20,051 nucleotides of DNA from a virus. Below the pieces are notes generated by a model, which was given only the letters and a program-made list of their open reading frames with translations, was not told the origin of the DNA and did not search any database. Every line of letters begins with the position of its first letter. Positions within the stretch are counted from its first letter, which is position 1. The translations under genes and the position numbers were made by a program. Below are positions 4,299 through 10,521 of the stretch, in pieces. The DNA is taken from positions 1 to 20,051 of the IMG/VR virus record IMGVR_UViG_3300042545_001759; one strand, written 5' to 3'.

Positions 4299-4653
4299 CA
4301 ACAGGTGACGACGGTGGTGTAACCCCACTGTCTATGAATCCCAAAAGATCCGTCTGACTCGCGAGGTAGGGTGGTGAGGGTAGAGTTACTATAAGTTGGG
4401 AATAATTAACCCGATACGAAAATGTAACCGCAGATTATGTCTGTTATGATGTACATAGATGGTACGAAAAACCTGTAACTTTTTGAGACTAACTCAACGA
4501 GGACTTTGTTAACCAGTGCATGACACGGATGGAGCAATTTAAGTGAGTTAGAATCAAACTTTAATGTGGTAGTCACTCCACGCAAGTGGTAAGCATCCGG
4601 CAGTAACACCGGAATGGCAATGTGGTTATCAAGAGGTAAGGAAAAGACTAATA
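4299..4653 (+). ncRNA. Structured gene-free region between tRNA-Thr and tRNA-Met, candidate novel RNA
   Basis: This 355-nt stretch has no credible open frame and is more G-rich than its surroundings. Paired elements visible by eye: GACGGTGG/CCACTGTC (4310-4317 with 4325-4332); TCCCAA/TTGGGA (4339-4344 with 4396-4401); CCAC-GCAA-GTGG, a GNRA-type tetraloop hairpin (4578-4589); CCGG-N8-CCGG near 4597-4612; and a self-complementary octamer CTCGCGAG at 4358-4365. It lies in one direction between two tRNA genes, so it is probably transcribed with them and released by tRNA processing. I see no RNase P signature (ACAGNRA) and no group I intron core. It may be a new RNA or a fragment of a giant phage RNA class; function unknown. 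Confidence 0.55.
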
Positions 4654-4726
4654 GGACTTGTAGCTTAATGGTTGAAGCAGCACACTCATAATGTGAAGAT
4701 TATAGGTTCGAGCCCTATCTGGTCCA
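4654..4726 (+). tRNA. tRNA with CAU anticodon (Met, or Ile2 if modified)
   Basis: 73-nt cloverleaf: acceptor GGACTTG with CTGGTCC (one U-U mismatch), discriminator A; D-arm GCTTAATGGTTGAAGC; anticodon loop CTCATAA, anticodon at 4687-4689; T-arm ATAGG-TTCGAGC-CCTAT. The G1-C72 pair argues against initiator tRNA. A CAU anticodon could also be lysidine-modified tRNA-Ile reading AUA, plausible in an A/T-rich phage. CCA not encoded. Confidence 0.9.
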
Positions 4727-4767
4727 CAAAAGTTTTTTGAAAAATTGTATTCAAGTATTGGAATATA

Positions 4768-4787
4768 ATTGTTATAATAATAACAAT
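4768..4787 (+). other. A/T hairpin between tRNA-Met and tRNA-Ser
   Basis: ATTGTTAT (4768-4775) and ATAACAAT (4780-4787) form a perfect 8-bp stem with an AATA loop. It sits 8 nt before tRNA-Ser and has no clear U-tract, so it may be a processing element rather than a terminator. Confidence 0.35.
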
Positions 4788-4795
4788 AAATAATT

Positions 4796-4881
4796 GGAGA
4801 GATGGCAGAGTTGGTCTATCGCGACAGTCTTGAAAACTGTAGACTGTAACAGGTCCGTGGGTTCGAATCCTACTCTCTCCG
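4796..4881 (+). tRNA. tRNA-Ser (UGA)
   Basis: 86-nt gene with the long variable arm of type II tRNAs. Acceptor GGAGAGA (4796-4802) pairs with TCTCTCC (4874-4880), discriminator G, typical for Ser. Anticodon stem ACAGT/ACTGT encloses loop CTTGAAA, anticodon UGA. It reads UCA. CCA not encoded. The radical SAM gene starts 19 nt downstream. Confidence 0.95.
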
Positions 4882-4900: not shown

Positions 4901-6106
4901 ATGGTATGGAACTATGAGAACACCCATTTAGTCCATGTGGAACTTTCTAATCGGTGCAACGCTGCTTGCCCGCTTTGCCCAAGGTATGTAAACCATTCTT
5001 TAAGGGTTAACCCTGAATTAGATTTGGGTAGCGTTTCTTTAGACAGCTTCAAAAAATGGTTTCCTTTAGATTTTGTACAAAGAAGTAAAAGTTGGATTTT
5101 TTGCGGTACCAATGGTGATCCTATGATGGCTAAAGATGCATATGAAATTGTGGAATACGTTGCCAAAAACTCGGAAGCAAAAATTCAAATTAACACAAAC
5201 GGCTCAATGAGAGATGTTGCATTTTGGAAAAAAATGGGGACTCTTCTTGCCGAACCTTGTGTTAATAGTAGATATGTTGTTTTTTCTGTTGATGGCTTAG
5301 AAGACACTAATCACATATATAGAAGAAATGTAAAATGGGATAACGTTATGAAGAATATGAAATCATACGTTAAATCAGGTGCATTAGGATTATGGGATTT
5401 TTTAATATTCAAACATAATGAACATCAATTAGTTGAAGCCGAGGCGTTAGCAAAAACAATTGGGGTAACTTTTTCACCAAAGAGACCTTTTGGTTTTGAT
5501 ACACATGAACCAGATACCTATCAAGACATGATGGTTTATGATGAAGAGGGTAATTTTATTTATAAAATAGAACCTGCAAGTGAAGAATTTAGATTAAATA
5601 AGTCAATCAAAAAATTTGAGATTAGCGAAGATAAAATTTGGCTTCCACCAAAAGATAAACGAACTAAAGAGTCTATTGATAAGAAATGGGGCGAAACTAT
5701 AAAAAACAATTTAAGTGATTTTAAATTTCCTGAAAGATTTAAAGGTAAATCTGTAAGTTGTAAATCATGTCATAAAATTGGTATGGAGATATACGTTGAT
5801 TGTAAAGGAAATGTAATGCCGTGTTGTTTTGTTGGTACAATGTATAATAGCAATTTTGAAAATAAAGAAACACTACAAATTAGAAAAGAAATAAATAATT
5901 ACGGTTTAAATAAAATCAGTTTAAACGATTACTCTCTTAATGAAATTTTAGATAGTGATTATTTAGAAGTTGTTTTTGCAAGTAGATGGGAGAATGCTAA
6001 AAGCGATGACGATAAAATGGTTTATTGCTTCAACACATGTTCGGTTAACCATATAGAAAATTTGTTTTTAAAGAAAGACGATTTGCCTATTACACCGCTT
6101 ACATAA
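4901..6106 (+). CDS. Radical SAM enzyme with SPASM-like C-terminal domain
   Basis: 401 residues. The radical SAM signature CNAACPLC (Cys19, Cys23, Cys26) binds the 4Fe-4S cluster that cleaves S-adenosylmethionine; CGTNGDP at 68-74 takes the place of the GGEP motif, and NTNGS (98-102) and FSVDG (128-132) are usual later strands. A second cysteine set (287, 290, 301, 308, 309, 376, 380) follows, with the CxGNVMPCC pattern typical of SPASM or twitch domains holding auxiliary clusters. SPASM enzymes usually modify peptides, proteins or aminoglycoside-like sugars; the substrate here is unknown. It lies 19 nt after tRNA-Ser, with no Shine-Dalgarno before the ATG, and ends at an A/T-only hairpin. 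Downstream SGNH and glycosyltransferase genes hint at glycan work, but a peptide substrate is equally possible. Confidence 0.93.
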   Translation: MVWNYENTHLVHVELSNRCNAACPLCPRYVNHSLRVNPELDLGSVSLDSFKKWFPLDFVQRSKSWIFCGTNGDPMMAKDAYEIVEYVAKNSEAKIQINTNGSMRDVAFWKKMGTLLAEPCVNSRYVVFSVDGLEDTNHIYRRNVKWDNVMKNMKSYVKSGALGLWDFLIFKHNEHQLVEAEALAKTIGVTFSPKRPFGFDTHEPDTYQDMMVYDEEGNFIYKIEPASEEFRLNKSIKKFEISEDKIWLPPKDKRTKESIDKKWGETIKNNLSDFKFPERFKGKSVSCKSCHKIGMEIYVDCKGNVMPCCFVGTMYNSNFENKETLQIRKEINNYGLNKISLNDYSLNEILDSDYLEVVFASRWENAKSDDDKMVYCFNTCSVNHIENLFLKKDDLPITPLT

Positions 6107-6141
6107 AATTATTTTTAAACTTTTTTATAAATAATTTTTTT
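6106..6141 (+). terminator. A/T-only hairpin with T-tract after the radical SAM gene
   Basis: AAATTATTT (6106-6114) is the exact reverse complement of AAATAATTT (6129-6137), followed by further T residues to 6141. A G/C-free stem is weak, but its location right at the stop codon and the T-run fit intrinsic termination. Confidence 0.45.
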
Positions 6142-6166
6142 ATTTGAAACCTTTTTCTTATCTTTG
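6136..6166 (+). promoter_or_regulatory. Bacteroidota -7 element before the large RNA
   Basis: TATCTTTG at 6159-6166 exactly matches TAnnTTTG; the same eight bases occur before the tRNA cluster at 4116. The -33 position (6136-6139) is TTTT, only partly matching TTTG. Initiation is expected near 6173, where the gene-free structured region begins. Confidence 0.55.
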
Positions 6167-6172
6167 TAAAAG

Positions 6173-7064
6173 AAAGCAAAAATAGTTCTTTGAATTAAAA
6201 ATATTGGCGGTCTATAGTCAATAAAATAAACCATGAAAGTGGGATAAAGTGAAGCCTGTTGGTTGACAGGATTTGCGGATTCAGCAATGGATCTTAAGTA
6301 GACAAGCGAGATATCGTTGAACCTGAAGTAGTGAGGGTAACTCCGTAGCGAAATGGTTTGATGACTAAGCGATGTGAGGTCGTTTAGTTGAGGTGGGAAC
6401 ACCAATAAGAATAACTCGTAGAATTATTGTGAGAAGTGTGGTTATCCGACTATACAATTGCGTGGTTCAATATAATGGTTGTCTTAAAACCGTAGCGTCG
6501 CAAGACGGAAGGTATAACAAAAAACAGATGGTGCTGTTATTGTTCTTAATTAAATTCTACCAAGGATTTAGTTTTGAAGAAAACCAAAAATATGAAGGCA
6601 GGGATGTCTTAGAGAGTAGTTTAGTATCGAGTCGCTCAAAAGGTGGCTTGGCTGGTTGACGAACCACTACTTTCCATATCCTCACAAACCAAACTTTTAC
6701 TTTCAATCGGTGAAAACTAAAAAAATAAAAGAAAAAGTGTTCGTCAGTTGTTGAAGATAGATGACTACACAGTCAAGAGTGGTTCTTGGCCATAGGGGGA
6801 CTCAATCCCAATATGATTTTTAAGAAAGTTCTCTAAGCCCGCAAGGCTGAGTCAGGTCGGCAGATTTGATGAGTAATAAGTAATAAAAGAGTATTTGACA
6901 ACTTAAGGATTGGTTAATCTAATTAGCCGTCATTGATCGGTACAACTCAAAAGGTTGTGGAAAAGGAAAGAAACAAATAATGTTCCTAAGTCGGTTGCTA
7001 AAACATGTATTCTCAGTGTTTTATTTTTATTTATTTTTTATTGAAAAAATGAATCAATCGTATT
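6173..7064 (+). ncRNA. Large (~900 nt) structured noncoding RNA with own promoter and terminator
   Basis: No believable gene exists here on either strand, yet the stretch is bounded by a -7 promoter element (6159-6166) and a strong terminator (7065-7096). Local helices are dense: CCTGT/ACAGG (6255-6259 with 6266-6270); ACTAAGCGA/TCGTTTAGT, 9 bp with a 7-nt loop (6364-6372 with 6380-6388); CGTC-GCAA-GACG, a GNRA tetraloop (6496-6507); GACTC/GAGTC (6799-6803 with 6849-6853) enclosing AGCC/GGCT (6836-6839 with 6845-6848); AAAACAT/GTGTTTT near 7001-7024. G content is raised and runs of unpaired A occur between helices. Size and position beside phage tRNA genes resemble the GOLLD and ROOL classes, which are long ornate phage RNAs; I cannot confirm membership. 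Exact ends are inferred from the promoter and terminator. Confidence 0.75.
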
Positions 7065-7096
7065 AAGCCAAAGCCTCAAAAACTTTGGCTTTTTTT
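7065..7096 (+). terminator. Intrinsic terminator of the large RNA
   Basis: AAGCCAAAG (7065-7073) pairs perfectly with CTTTGGCTT (7083-7091), loop of 9 nt, followed by a T-run to 7096. It is oriented for plus-strand transcripts and separates the large RNA from tRNA-Leu. Confidence 0.9.
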
Positions 7097-7144
7097 GTTT
7101 ATAGGTTTTTTAATCTCATTTTTTTTATTTATATTTTATTATAA

Positions 7145-7229
7145 ACCTGGGTGATGAAATGGTATACATGACAGACTTAAAATCTGTTGAACAGAAATGT
7201 TCGTGTGGGTTCAAGTCCCACTTCAGGTA
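7145..7229 (+). tRNA. tRNA-Leu (UAA)
   Basis: 85-nt type II tRNA with long variable arm. Acceptor ACCTGGG (7145-7151) pairs with TTCAGGT (7222-7228) with two G-U pairs, discriminator A. Anticodon stem ACAGA/TCTGT, loop CTTAAAA, anticodon UAA; T-arm GTGGG-TTCAAGT-CCCAC. Reads UUA, the most frequent Leu codon in A/T-rich genes. TATATTTT at 7130-7137 could be its -7 element. CCA not encoded. Confidence 0.93.
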
Positions 7230-7230
7230 C

Positions 7231-7250
7231 AAACGCTACCGTTCTTTGAA
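7231..7250 (+). repeat. Left arm of an 18-bp inverted repeat enclosing the small membrane gene
   Basis: AACGCTACCGT-T-CTTTGAA (7232-7250) is the reverse complement of the right arm at 7531-7550 except for one inserted T. The arm begins 2 nt after tRNA-Leu. Confidence 0.8.
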
Positions 7251-7267
7251 TATAGGAGAAATAACAT

Positions 7268-7516
7268 ATGGATATATTATCATTTATTTTAGGAATGTCT
7301 ATTGTGGTGGTTATCGCGGTTGCGGTAGTTGCTGTAATAGCCTTTGTTAAGGTTAATAGAACTAACAAAGAAATTGAGGAAGTACAACAATGTCTCGGAA
7401 GAGAGGTTGAAAATCAAAACAGAGAACGTGAAAATGCAATGAACGATGTTTATCGTGTATTGGATTCGCGTTTAGATAAACTTGAGAGTAAAATAACAAC
7501 AAGCCGTAAGGCATAA
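7268..7516 (+). CDS. Small single-pass membrane protein with coiled-coil tail
   Basis: 82 residues. Residues 4-27 are strongly hydrophobic (LSFILGMSIVVVIAVAVVAV), one membrane helix, followed by VKVNRTNKE and a charged heptad-like helix to the C-terminus (coiled coil, about 30-78). A Shine-Dalgarno AGGAG at 7254-7258 lies 9 nt before the ATG, unusual in this window. No family recognised; the shape recalls small phage membrane proteins such as spanin or holin-associated proteins, but nothing specific supports this. The gene is precisely enclosed by an inverted repeat (7232-7250 and 7531-7550) and sits between tRNA-Leu and the SGNH pair. Confidence 0.75.
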   Translation: MDILSFILGMSIVVVIAVAVVAVIAFVKVNRTNKEIEEVQQCLGREVENQNRERENAMNDVYRVLDSRLDKLESKITTSRKA

Positions 7517-7560: not shown

Positions 7561-8280
7561 ATGGATAAAAAAATTTTATTTATTGGTGACAGTTGGGTGA
7601 CAAACTTTTTTAATGTTTATCCTCTTTGGGGAGAGGAATCACCAATCAGAGATTTTTGGAATAATGAAGGATTCACACCTTATTTTTTAGGTAGTCCTAG
7701 TAGAGATACTCAATCAACTTTAGACATATGGACAAAACATATTCCACATTTAACTCCTGATGATTTATTGGTAGTGTTCTTACCTGTGTTTAATAGAACA
7801 AGGCTTCCATTAAAAGATAGAAGAGCGTTATACGTTGGACATGGTATTACAAATTTCAATGATTATTTTCAAGGGAGTAAATCCTATAACCCTGAATTTA
7901 ATTCTTTGGAAATATGGAGTAATCAATATGATTTTAAATATTTTAATGATAAATTAGAAATTCAAGAATTAATTAATGGTAGCGATGCTTCTATTTTAAA
8001 TTATATTGAAGTTATTGAAGCGTTATACAAATTGACGCCATGTAAAAAAATTGTTCATTGTTGGGATCATAAAAAACATGATAGTAGTGTTATCATTTAT
8101 CGAGAAGAAATGACTGAATTAATTGGGATGTGGGAAACTAGAGGAGAAATACACATCAGAACTAACGGTGAACAAGAAATGAAAGGCGATTCTCATTGGA
8201 GTGATGATATGAACATGGAGTTCATGAATTTTTTAAAAAAACATTTCAATAAAAAGTATGAACAAATACGTTTGATATGA
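7561..8280 (+). CDS. SGNH/GDSL hydrolase-like protein
   Basis: 239 residues beginning MDKKILFIGDSWV. Gly9-Asp10-Ser11 fits block I of SGNH hydrolases, whose Ser is the nucleophile; GDSHWSD near 209-215 supplies the Asp-x-His (Asp210, His212) of block V. The block III GxND motif is not clear. SGNH enzymes are esterases or acyl transferases, often acting on acetylated polysaccharides. No signal peptide, so it acts in the cytosol or in the virion. The stop overlaps the next start (ATGA), so translation of the pair is probably coupled. No Shine-Dalgarno; the start is 10 nt after the inverted-repeat arm. Related but divergent from the next gene; substrate unknown. Confidence 0.8.
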   Translation: MDKKILFIGDSWVTNFFNVYPLWGEESPIRDFWNNEGFTPYFLGSPSRDTQSTLDIWTKHIPHLTPDDLLVVFLPVFNRTRLPLKDRRALYVGHGITNFNDYFQGSKSYNPEFNSLEIWSNQYDFKYFNDKLEIQELINGSDASILNYIEVIEALYKLTPCKKIVHCWDHKKHDSSVIIYREEMTELIGMWETRGEIHIRTNGEQEMKGDSHWSDDMNMEFMNFLKKHFNKKYEQIRLI

Positions 8281-9062
8281 TTAAGACAAATAAAAAATAC
8301 GATAATTTAATAACATTTGGCTGTTCTTTTACAACTGGACACAATTTAGGTGATGAAGGCTCGTGGGGGTTTTCTCTTGCTAAATTATTAAATTGCAAAC
8401 ACGTAAATAAAGGCGGTGGCGGTTCTAACACAAACATTTTTACAAATGTTATAAATTATTGTGAAAACAATGACATGAGCAATTCTTGTATTGGTATACA
8501 ATGGAGTGAAGTTACCAGAAGAGAATATTGGGATGAAAAAAATAGTAGATACCATACGTTGGGTATTGGAACATTTAGTTCCGTACATCAAATTTTTGAA
8601 AGAGAAACAAGTTATTATGATTCATTAAGTTTTATAAAAAATAACCAACCTTTTTTTGGTGATATGTGGTTTAATCTTGCGGAAAACACATTAAGAACTA
8701 TAATTGCAATGATTAGTGTAAAATCTTATTTAAAAAATAAGAATATTGATTTTATAATGTTTGAAGGGATTAATTCTATTAAAACTATAAACAAATCGTT
8801 TTATCCGCAGGATCATCAAACTAATATCAATCATTATAGCCCGTCAGAAGGAAATGATTTTACGTTATTAAGAGATGAAATAAGAATGTCAATATTAAAT
8901 GATGATACATTTTATAGCGAACAAAGTGATTGGATGAGTGCAATGTATAATCACCCTAATTTTGACACAACAATAAACGATGGACACCCACATCAAGAAA
9001 TAGTAGAGTGGTGGGTTGGTAAAATATACCAACACATTAAAAATGTAGAAAATAAAAATTAA
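8277..9062 (+). CDS. Second SGNH hydrolase-like protein (GCSFT type)
   Basis: 261 residues. LITFGCSFTTG (12-21) is the variant block I found in many phage and environmental SGNH-like proteins, with Ser17 as probable nucleophile; GGGGSNTNI (46-54) matches the Gly/Asn oxyanion block; NDGHPHQE at 234-241 gives the catalytic Asp235 and His (237 or 239). No signal peptide. Its ATG overlaps the preceding TGA by four bases (ATGA). Together with the previous gene it forms a tandem pair, perhaps a heteromer or two steps in acyl transfer to a glycan. A glycosyltransferase lies 1.4 kb downstream. The family call is good; the reaction is unknown. Confidence 0.85.
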   Translation: MIKTNKKYDNLITFGCSFTTGHNLGDEGSWGFSLAKLLNCKHVNKGGGGSNTNIFTNVINYCENNDMSNSCIGIQWSEVTRREYWDEKNSRYHTLGIGTFSSVHQIFERETSYYDSLSFIKNNQPFFGDMWFNLAENTLRTIIAMISVKSYLKNKNIDFIMFEGINSIKTINKSFYPQDHQTNINHYSPSEGNDFTLLRDEIRMSILNDDTFYSEQSDWMSAMYNHPNFDTTINDGHPHQEIVEWWVGKIYQHIKNVENKN

Positions 9063-9469: not shown

Positions 9470-9679
9470 ATGAAGTGCTTAAAAAATACAAAAACAGGAA
9501 ACATCATTAGAGTTGATGATAAACAAGCCACACAAATGGCGGGTAATACATGGAAATATGTAAGTAAAACCGAATGGAAAGGCGTTAAAGAAATACCATC
9601 CGTAGAAGTCGCCCATGATATGGGTGGTTCATATGAAACTCCAATTGAAAAGAAGAAAAAATCTAAAAAAGTTTCTTAG
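9470..9679 (+). CDS. Small basic phage protein of unknown function
   Basis: 69 residues from the ATG at 9470. An in-frame ATG at 9458 exists, but the sequence GGAGG (9460-9464) lies 5 nt before 9470, ideal for a Shine-Dalgarno, so the later start is chosen. The product begins MKCLKNTKTGNIIRVDDKQA, then WKYVSKTEWK, and ends in a Lys-rich tail (EKKKKSKKVS). The pattern of a short beta sheet followed by WxYVSKxxWK recurs in small hypothetical proteins of tailed phages; I know no function. It has its own promoter and terminator, so it is expressed independently, perhaps strongly. Confidence 0.8.
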   Translation: MKCLKNTKTGNIIRVDDKQATQMAGNTWKYVSKTEWKGVKEIPSVEVAHDMGGSYETPIEKKKKSKKVS

Positions 9680-9722
9680 TTTATTAAAACTAAGTGGTGG
9701 ACGAATGTACGCAAAACCGTAC
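9674..9722 (+). other. Two hairpins in the 3' UTR of the small basic gene
   Basis: CTTAGTTT (9675-9682) pairs with AAACTAAG (9687-9694) across the stop codon, and GTACG (9707-9711) pairs with CGTAC (9718-9722). With the terminator behind them this makes three consecutive stems in 85 nt, suggesting a stable 3' UTR-derived RNA. The core GGTGGA...CGCAA also appears 390 nt upstream at 9312-9326. Confidence 0.4.
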
Positions 9723-9730
9723 GGCCTCTA

Positions 9731-9759
9731 AAGGTTAGGATTAAACCTAACCTTTTTTT
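9731..9759 (+). terminator. Intrinsic terminator
   Basis: AAGGTTAGG (9731-9739) pairs perfectly with CCTAACCTT (9746-9754), 6-nt loop, T-run to 9759. It ends the small basic gene's transcript just before the phosphoesterase gene. Confidence 0.9.
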
Positions 9760-9771
9760 AAATTATTTTTT

Positions 9772-10521
9772 ATGAGAATTGTTTGTATATCCGATACACA
9801 TAGCTTACATGATTTAATGGAACACCCGTTACCAAAAGGTGATATATTAATTCATTCAGGTGACATCTCAAATAAAGGAGGTGAAAAAGACGTAGCTAAT
9901 TTCATTCATTGGTTCCAAAACTTAGGTGGATGGGACAATAAAATATTCATATCAGGTAATCATGATTTTTGTTTTGAAAGAGTTAATCAACCGCACCATA
10001 AAGGTGATTACGATTGGTTACGTAATTTAATGGCTCCTGAAAATTTATCGCAATCAGATGTCACTTATTTAGAGGATAATTTTATCACAATTGAAACACC
10101 TGAGTTTTCTCGTCCAATTAAATTTTATGGTAGCCCTTGGCAACCTAATTTTTATGATTGGGCTTTTAACTTACCAAGAATGGGCGATGAAATTAAATCT
10201 AAATGGGATATGATTCCTGATGACACCGACGTGTTAATCACACACGGACCTCCACAAGAAATTAGAGATTTTGTTGATAATTGGAGAAGCCCGTCAAATG
10301 TTGGATGTGAATTATTAAGGCATCAAGTGGAAAATAGAATTAAACCATTATTACATGTGTTTGGACATATTCATGGGGCATATGGTGCTGCTTATGTTAA
10401 GGACACATTATATGTTAACGCATCAACCTGCGATGAAAGATACGAACCAATAAATAAACCAATCGTTGTTGACTTAGTTGAAATCTACGGAAAAATAAAC
10501 GCAATATATGTCGAAGAATAA
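9772..10521 (+). CDS. Calcineurin-like metallophosphoesterase
   Basis: 249 residues with all motifs of the metallophosphoesterase fold in order: DTH (Asp8, His10), GD (30-31), GNHD (62-65), ITHGPP (His158) and GHIHG (198-202). These bind two metal ions and hydrolyse phosphomonoesters or phosphodiesters. Length fits the cytosolic single-domain type close to the YfcE/MPPED group; no signal peptide. It starts 13 nt after a terminator with no visible Shine-Dalgarno and overlaps the following glycosyltransferase by 14 nt, so the pair is probably co-translated. Substrate unknown: a nucleotide, a cyclic nucleotide, RNA end or sugar phosphate are all possible. In phages such enzymes may repair nucleic-acid ends or remove host signalling nucleotides, but nothing here decides. 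Confidence 0.93.
   Translation: MRIVCISDTHSLHDLMEHPLPKGDILIHSGDISNKGGEKDVANFIHWFQNLGGWDNKIFISGNHDFCFERVNQPHHKGDYDWLRNLMAPENLSQSDVTYLEDNFITIETPEFSRPIKFYGSPWQPNFYDWAFNLPRMGDEIKSKWDMIPDDTDVLITHGPPQEIRDFVDNWRSPSNVGCELLRHQVENRIKPLLHVFGHIHGAYGAAYVKDTLYVNASTCDERYEPINKPIVVDLVEIYGKINAIYVEE

Follow-up and report, generated by a model that had tools for sequence, protein, structure and literature searches.

Positions 6171–7096 of the window, the 20,051-nucleotide stretch of viral DNA analysed here, are a single non-coding RNA gene, whose product is a complete member of the known GOLLD family. The full Rfam model of GOLLD (RF02032, positions 1–416 of 416) matched positions 6612–7019 on the plus strand with 300.5 bits and an E value of 1.7e-85; the score is double the 150 bits that Rfam sets as the gathering threshold. 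This model covers only the 3′ half of GOLLD, and the 5′ half, which has no Rfam model, was placed by other means (Table 1). An earlier interpretation made from the letters alone (the sequence-only reading) had proposed a giant structured RNA without a gene and had named GOLLD as a candidate, although it could not recognize the conserved core. The Rfam match and the covariation described below bear out the proposal, and the core is present at full length. We hold with high confidence the overall interpretation of a complete GOLLD gene from a phage probably of Bacteroidota, with a boxA-led transcript, two domains, cage assembly and a lytic role.

The window RNA shares with GOLLD a full-length 3′ domain, a 5′ domain of about 410 nt, a variable internal linker, the GC/CG loop L21a, a phage genome and tRNA neighbours. 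As for GOLLD, its two domains together exceed 800 nt, and the total is about 850 nt compared with 833 nt in the GOLLD RNA env-38. The sequence-only reading had proposed running the models of several large RNAs: GOLLD matched, whereas ROOL, OLE and HEARO did not match anywhere in the window at the gathering level, nor at E ≤ 5 in positions 6100–7140, so that these three identities were rejected. ROOL is similar to the window RNA in being a giant phage RNA near tRNAs, and it also forms an RNA cage (PMC12286853). GOLLD belongs to the small number of natural RNAs that form cages of RNA alone. The analysis adds an aligned set of GOLLD sequences from Bacteroidota phages that includes the 5′ domain, as well as an rRNA-like leader; the set is large and well aligned, and, with a complete 5′ domain missing from Rfam, it provides covariation for contacts between the domains.

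Table 1 Coordinates of the GOLLD gene, its parts and the adjoining tRNA in the window
Feature	Positions	Strand	Details
−7 promoter element TATCTTTG	6159–6166	+	Bacteroidota consensus TAnnTTTG; predicted start near 6171
boxA-like element GTTCTTTGA	6185–6193	+	26 nt after the start of TATCTTTG
GOLLD 5′ domain	6204–6611	+	nhmmer matches, 3′-selected loci, covariation
9-bp hairpin	6364–6388	+	each of its 8 consensus pairs varies on both sides
GNRA hairpin CGTC-GCAA-GACG	6496–6507	+	most relatives have gaps here in alignment A2
GOLLD 3′ domain	6612–7019	+	RF02032 match; 77 pairs, 66 with two-sided change
Variable A-rich linker, 63 nt	6677–6739	+	closed by helix 6658–6663/6740–6745
Probable L21a hairpin AGCC-CGCAA-GGCT	6836–6848	+	self-complementary GC at 6841–6842; bridge B8 between half-shells
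Intrinsic terminator	7065–7096	+	AAGCCAAAG, 9-nt loop, CUUUGGCUU, U-tract; last helix of the fold
tRNA-Leu	7145–7230	+	directly downstream of GOLLD; ARAGORN and Rfam

Linkage of the 5′ and 3′ domains

A DNA similarity search with the 5′ half recovered two named phages, LR756502 (642 kb) and LR745206 (635 kb), both of which carry GOLLD, and searches with 5′-domain motifs added more than 100 further viral contigs. The first motif scan, with AAGCCCGCAAGGCTNAG, had returned 51 matches, 12 of which were scanned with Rfam, and GOLLD was seen in one (L039). Two 5′ motifs gave no matches to these exact motifs in host genome contigs (one genome per species). Profile searches with nhmmer placed the 5′ domain in all 117 loci gathered through 5′ motifs or DNA similarity, and the full GOLLD 3′ domain was present in 42 of 46 and 35 of 36 searched records of this collection; the five records without it contained partial RNAs or were cut by a contig end.

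To remove the bias of gathering by the 5′ half, we made a separate collection with 3′ motifs. It contained 113 new loci, of which 13 were cut off, 96 carried the same 5′ domain and 4 did not. The same 5′ domain was thus found in 96 of the 100 3′-selected loci with enough upstream sequence; these 3′ domains therefore normally come with it, and it is not something newly attached. Among the four exceptions are L266 and L267, whose 5′ domain has diverged; in L194, also one of the four, a tRNA (713–775, +) lies inside the GOLLD RNA (636–1077), as reported for other GOLLD linkers.

These results bear on the suggestion, also made from the letters alone, that the giant phage RNA of the window might represent a new class, similar to GOLLD merely in its size and setting. 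The 5′ half, unmatched by Rfam, would fit such a class. However, the whole GOLLD model matches the 3′ half at E 1.7e-85, and the 5′ domain and GOLLD 3′ domains nearly always occur together; we consider a new class highly improbable and abandoned it in favour of GOLLD.

Across the collected loci, the median distance was 0.34 for the 5′ domain and 0.40 for the 3′ domain, whereas the literature calls the 5′ domain the less conserved, a difference that is partly an effect of gathering loci by 5′ motifs. One 14.5-kb contig (L135) contains GOLLD twice, with equal scores and in opposite orientations (4492–4880, −, and 9641–10029, +), possibly an assembly palindrome.

Covariation and non-coding status

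We aligned 48 full-length sequences with mutual identities below 93% (alignment A2), in which the relatives are 49–79% identical to the window. RNAalifold predicted 178 pairs, and 146 of these, in both halves, showed two-sided changes. In the 5′ domain, where 80 of 100 pairs had a two-sided change, 97.6% of cells were paired (78.9% in shuffled and about 39% in slid controls) and 941 cells were two-sided, compared with 247 after shuffling; in the 3′ domain, 97.2% were paired (72% shuffled, 38–48% slid) and 896 were two-sided, compared with 250, although these controls overstate the effect somewhat because the structure was drawn from the same alignment and related sequences are not independent. 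A mutual-information scan that used no structure placed the same helices first and added long-range contacts. The window RNA also folded better than its shuffled versions: the z score of the whole RNA was −5.6 against 20 shuffles, and that of the 5′ half was −5.1 against 100. Fold scores and massive covariation in both halves thus agree with the dense helices described by the sequence-only reading.

The individual helices named in that reading fared differently. Its 9-bp hairpin is a real element of the family. The GNRA hairpin is present in the window and is a lineage-specific insertion common to few relatives. The nested three-part helix at 6799–6853 resolved into two separate family hairpins (6798–6808 and 6836–6848), and its outer GACTC/GAGTC helix, which is not conserved in the alignment, was rejected.

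Several contacts lie outside the nested fold. Positions 6658–6663 form a covarying helix with 6740–6745 that closes the linker, 6761–6765 are coupled to 6929–6933 by mutual information, and 6731–6732 contact 6802–6803 in a manner that resembles the pseudoknot of L22 with J17/22. Within the 5′ domain, 6445–6447 contact 6602–6604. Between the domains, the hairpin loop at 6374–6378 covaries with 6680–6683 of the 3′ domain, a signal in which pairing within a chain and between chains is indistinguishable; in the window, UGUGAGG (6373–6379) is complementary to CCUCACA (6679–6685). The two domains may be joined partly by this loop-to-linker pairing. For the L20 to J13/15 kissing loop known from the published structure, loop 6779–6783 showed no standout covariation with the 5′ domain in the alignment.

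Just two open reading frames overlap the RNA, at 6393–6659 (+) and 6115–6405 (−), with 88 and 96 codons' worth of amino acids, respectively. They raise the alternative of a protein-coding or leader region that encodes small proteins and whose RNA structure is incidental. Stops interrupt the plus-strand frame in 45 of the 48 sequences and the minus-strand frame in 43, the length differs from that of the window by other than a multiple of 3 in 36, and compensatory two-sided changes occur throughout. We rejected the coding alternative, to which we assign virtually no probability, and read the nearly 900 nt as non-coding, as their lack of a credible gene had first suggested. Homologues of the window RNA therefore have covarying helices and show no coding conservation, the two points that the sequence-only reading had singled out as decisive.

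Promoter, terminator and probable host

The Bacteroidota promoter consensus is TTTG/TAnnTTTG (PMC6847099). TAnnTTTG occurred within 250 nt upstream of GOLLD in 33 of the 48 sequences, compared with 6.3 expected, and the two-part form TTG-N19/20-TAnnTTTG occurred in the same interval in 29 of 48, compared with 5.5% of random windows from the same loci and strand. The promoter proposed at the 5′ end of the window RNA was upheld for its −7 element only: TATCTTTG lacks the usual TTTG 19–20 bases upstream and has one 12 bases upstream, so that a well-spaced −33 element is absent here, whereas the two-part promoter is clear in relatives.

Both the sequence and the fold confirm the strong intrinsic terminator noticed at the 3′ end, which our terminator scan missed because its loop limit was 8 nt and the loop here has 9. 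Terminator-like sites were found downstream of GOLLD in 21 of 46 sequences and in 9% of random windows. Host RNA polymerase would start near 6171 and stop at the terminator hairpin, and the predicted transcript would consist of a short leader with the boxA-like GTTCTTTGA followed by about 850 nt of GOLLD.

The closest named relatives are the 635- and 642-kb Mahaphages; phages of 634–642 kb belong to the Mahaphage clade and are predicted to replicate in Bacteroidetes (PMC7162821). Because 29 of 48 sequences have promoters of this phylum ahead of the RNA and the nearest named relatives are Mahaphages, the host of the window's phage is probably a member of the Bacteroidota. The promoters, the predicted host of these relatives and the rRNA-leader-like boxA also favour the Bacteroidota branch of GOLLD that the sequence-only reading had listed as an option.

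A boxA-like leader

Of the 48 sequences, 35 had TTCTTTGA in the 120 nt that precede GOLLD, compared with 1.7% of random 120-nt windows, and in GOLLD loci the boxA-like motif mostly lay 35–37 nt after the promoter. Within GOLLD-bearing loci, the motif followed 85 of 164 promoters before GOLLD and 8 of the 59 that lie ahead of tRNAs. It followed 23 of the 392 remaining promoters, and several of these stand before a tmRNA identified by Rfam. Nine of 12 Bacteroidota 16S leaders, taken from plasmid records, carried GTTCTTTGA upstream of 16S, and most of these had it 40–55 nt after TAnnTTTG. The window's element is identical to this host rRNA-leader sequence and likewise sits shortly after a promoter. 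We take GTTCTTTGA to resemble E. coli boxA, and from this likeness and its position we infer that it is the boxA of Bacteroidota rRNA operons. In E. coli, boxA and NusB together keep Rho from terminating long non-coding transcripts (PMC4807359).

The leader in front of GOLLD appears to be an antitermination leader of the rRNA type. Like the leaders of Bacteroidota rRNA operons, that of the phages combines a TTTG-N19/20-TAnnTTTG promoter with GTTCTTTGA; it differs in driving GOLLD, tmRNA or tRNAs instead of 16S, and in a spacing of mostly 35–37 nt instead of mostly about 40–55 nt. Together with the E. coli boxA and NusB data, the enrichment of the motif and its match to 16S leaders suggest that phages make GOLLD with the host rRNA elongation machinery. 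Most likely, boxA would recruit the host rRNA antitermination factors (NusB, S10 and SuhB) and the long untranslated RNA would escape Rho; antitermination of GOLLD is proposed here from the sequence and position of the motif. More broadly, we lean towards the view that Bacteroidota phages express GOLLD, tmRNA and some tRNA arrays from host-rRNA-like promoter–boxA leaders, through the host antitermination machinery.

One alternative, which we rate as a somewhat smaller but appreciable chance, accepts GOLLD as real and takes GTTCTTTGA as a chance or inherited leader motif, with the fold alone resisting Rho. Consistent with this, the exact motif is absent within 120 nt in 13 of 48 sequences and from 3 of 12 Bacteroidota 16S leaders, and the relatives share ancestry. 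By contrast, the motif and its distance from the promoter are kept while the surrounding sequence changes, and it recurs before tmRNA, before tRNA arrays and in host rRNA leaders. A boxA leader of the rRNA kind would hint at how phages make so much long untranslated RNA and is directly testable; if the broader view is true, boxA would be a marker of non-coding RNA genes in Bacteroidota phages and could help to discover others. Our search of the open-access literature found no earlier report of boxA with GOLLD, and the rRNA-like promoter–boxA leader of GOLLD looks new.

A promoter and GTTCTTTGA stand directly before tmRNA-like starts in L099, L108, L122, L169, L179, L211, L220 and L225, and Rfam found tmRNA in those that were scanned (L169, L179, L211 and L225). 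The window's own phage tmRNA (11512–11909, tag ATSTVAVA) has no GTTCTTTGA directly before it. A further GTTCTTTGA lies at 7241–7249 in the window, right after tRNA-Leu and before an 82-aa open reading frame (7268–7516) without a Pfam match.

Features of the proposed RNA cage

The structure of GOLLD env-38 is a closed RNA cage of 14 copies with the linker inside, and GOLLD rises during lysis (PMC12286853). In this structure, two chains are joined by pairing of their L21a loops at a self-complementary dinucleotide, which is GC in some GOLLD RNAs and CG in others (PMC12286853). Position and sequence indicate that the hairpin at 6836–6848 is probably L21a. Its dinucleotide is GC in most of the 48 sequences, including the window (CGCAA), and CG (GTCGAA) in 14. 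The linker is 56–74 nt long in relatives, consists half of A and is less conserved than the rest of the RNA. By analogy with env-38, copies of the window RNA may assemble into a similar closed cage with the A-rich linker inside, and the 5′ domain would form its cap, as in the published structure.

The cage structure comes from another sequence, env-38. Ribosomes have been reported to bind GOLLD in pull-downs (PMC12286853), which would suit a GOLLD that acts in this lineage as a single chain or together with proteins and not as an RNA-only cage. We regard this as unlikely, given that the GC-to-CG switch of the self-complementary L21a dinucleotide makes sense for the pairing of two copies. The cage, which remains our preferred form, would probably have its role in the lytic phase, as a container for RNA or for cargo related to ribosomes. 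One Lactobacillus brevis prophage did not need GOLLD for phage production (PMC7567579), and the benefit of the RNA may therefore be small or conditional.

Neighbouring genes and other RNA elements

The phage and tRNA-gene setting ascribed to GOLLD-type RNAs in the sequence-only reading applies here: tRNA-Leu adjoins the RNA on the same strand, and 25 of 48 sequences have a tRNA within 500 nt of GOLLD, compared with 24% of locus length that near a tRNA. The window also contains three other tRNAs and a tmRNA, and such surroundings are usual for GOLLD (PMC12286853). A gene for a radical SAM protein (4901–6106) lies between the tRNA cluster and GOLLD.

Other RNA elements were found near GOLLD in relatives. 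In L267, a Pistol ribozyme (837–912, −; 69.4 bits) is located at about the 5′ end of GOLLD (94–475, −) and may define where the mature RNA begins; it was found in this one of 50 records searched and is absent from the window. A group I intron match in L169 overlaps the 3′ end of the phage tmRNA gene (7880–8277 and 8253–8474, +). In 13 loci (5 distinct sequences), an unnamed element of 122–153 nt lies 130–260 nt upstream of GOLLD, for example in L097 (3493–3614, −), L098 (2626–2778, −), L118 (444–594, −) and L210 (3247–3398, +), and also in L187, L164 and others. Searches of this element against Rfam gave no family at gathering and none above chance. It often has its own promoter and a boxA-like motif, its ends pair with compensatory change (GGTTAC/GTAATC and GGTTAT/ATAACC), and it is possibly a new phage non-coding RNA.
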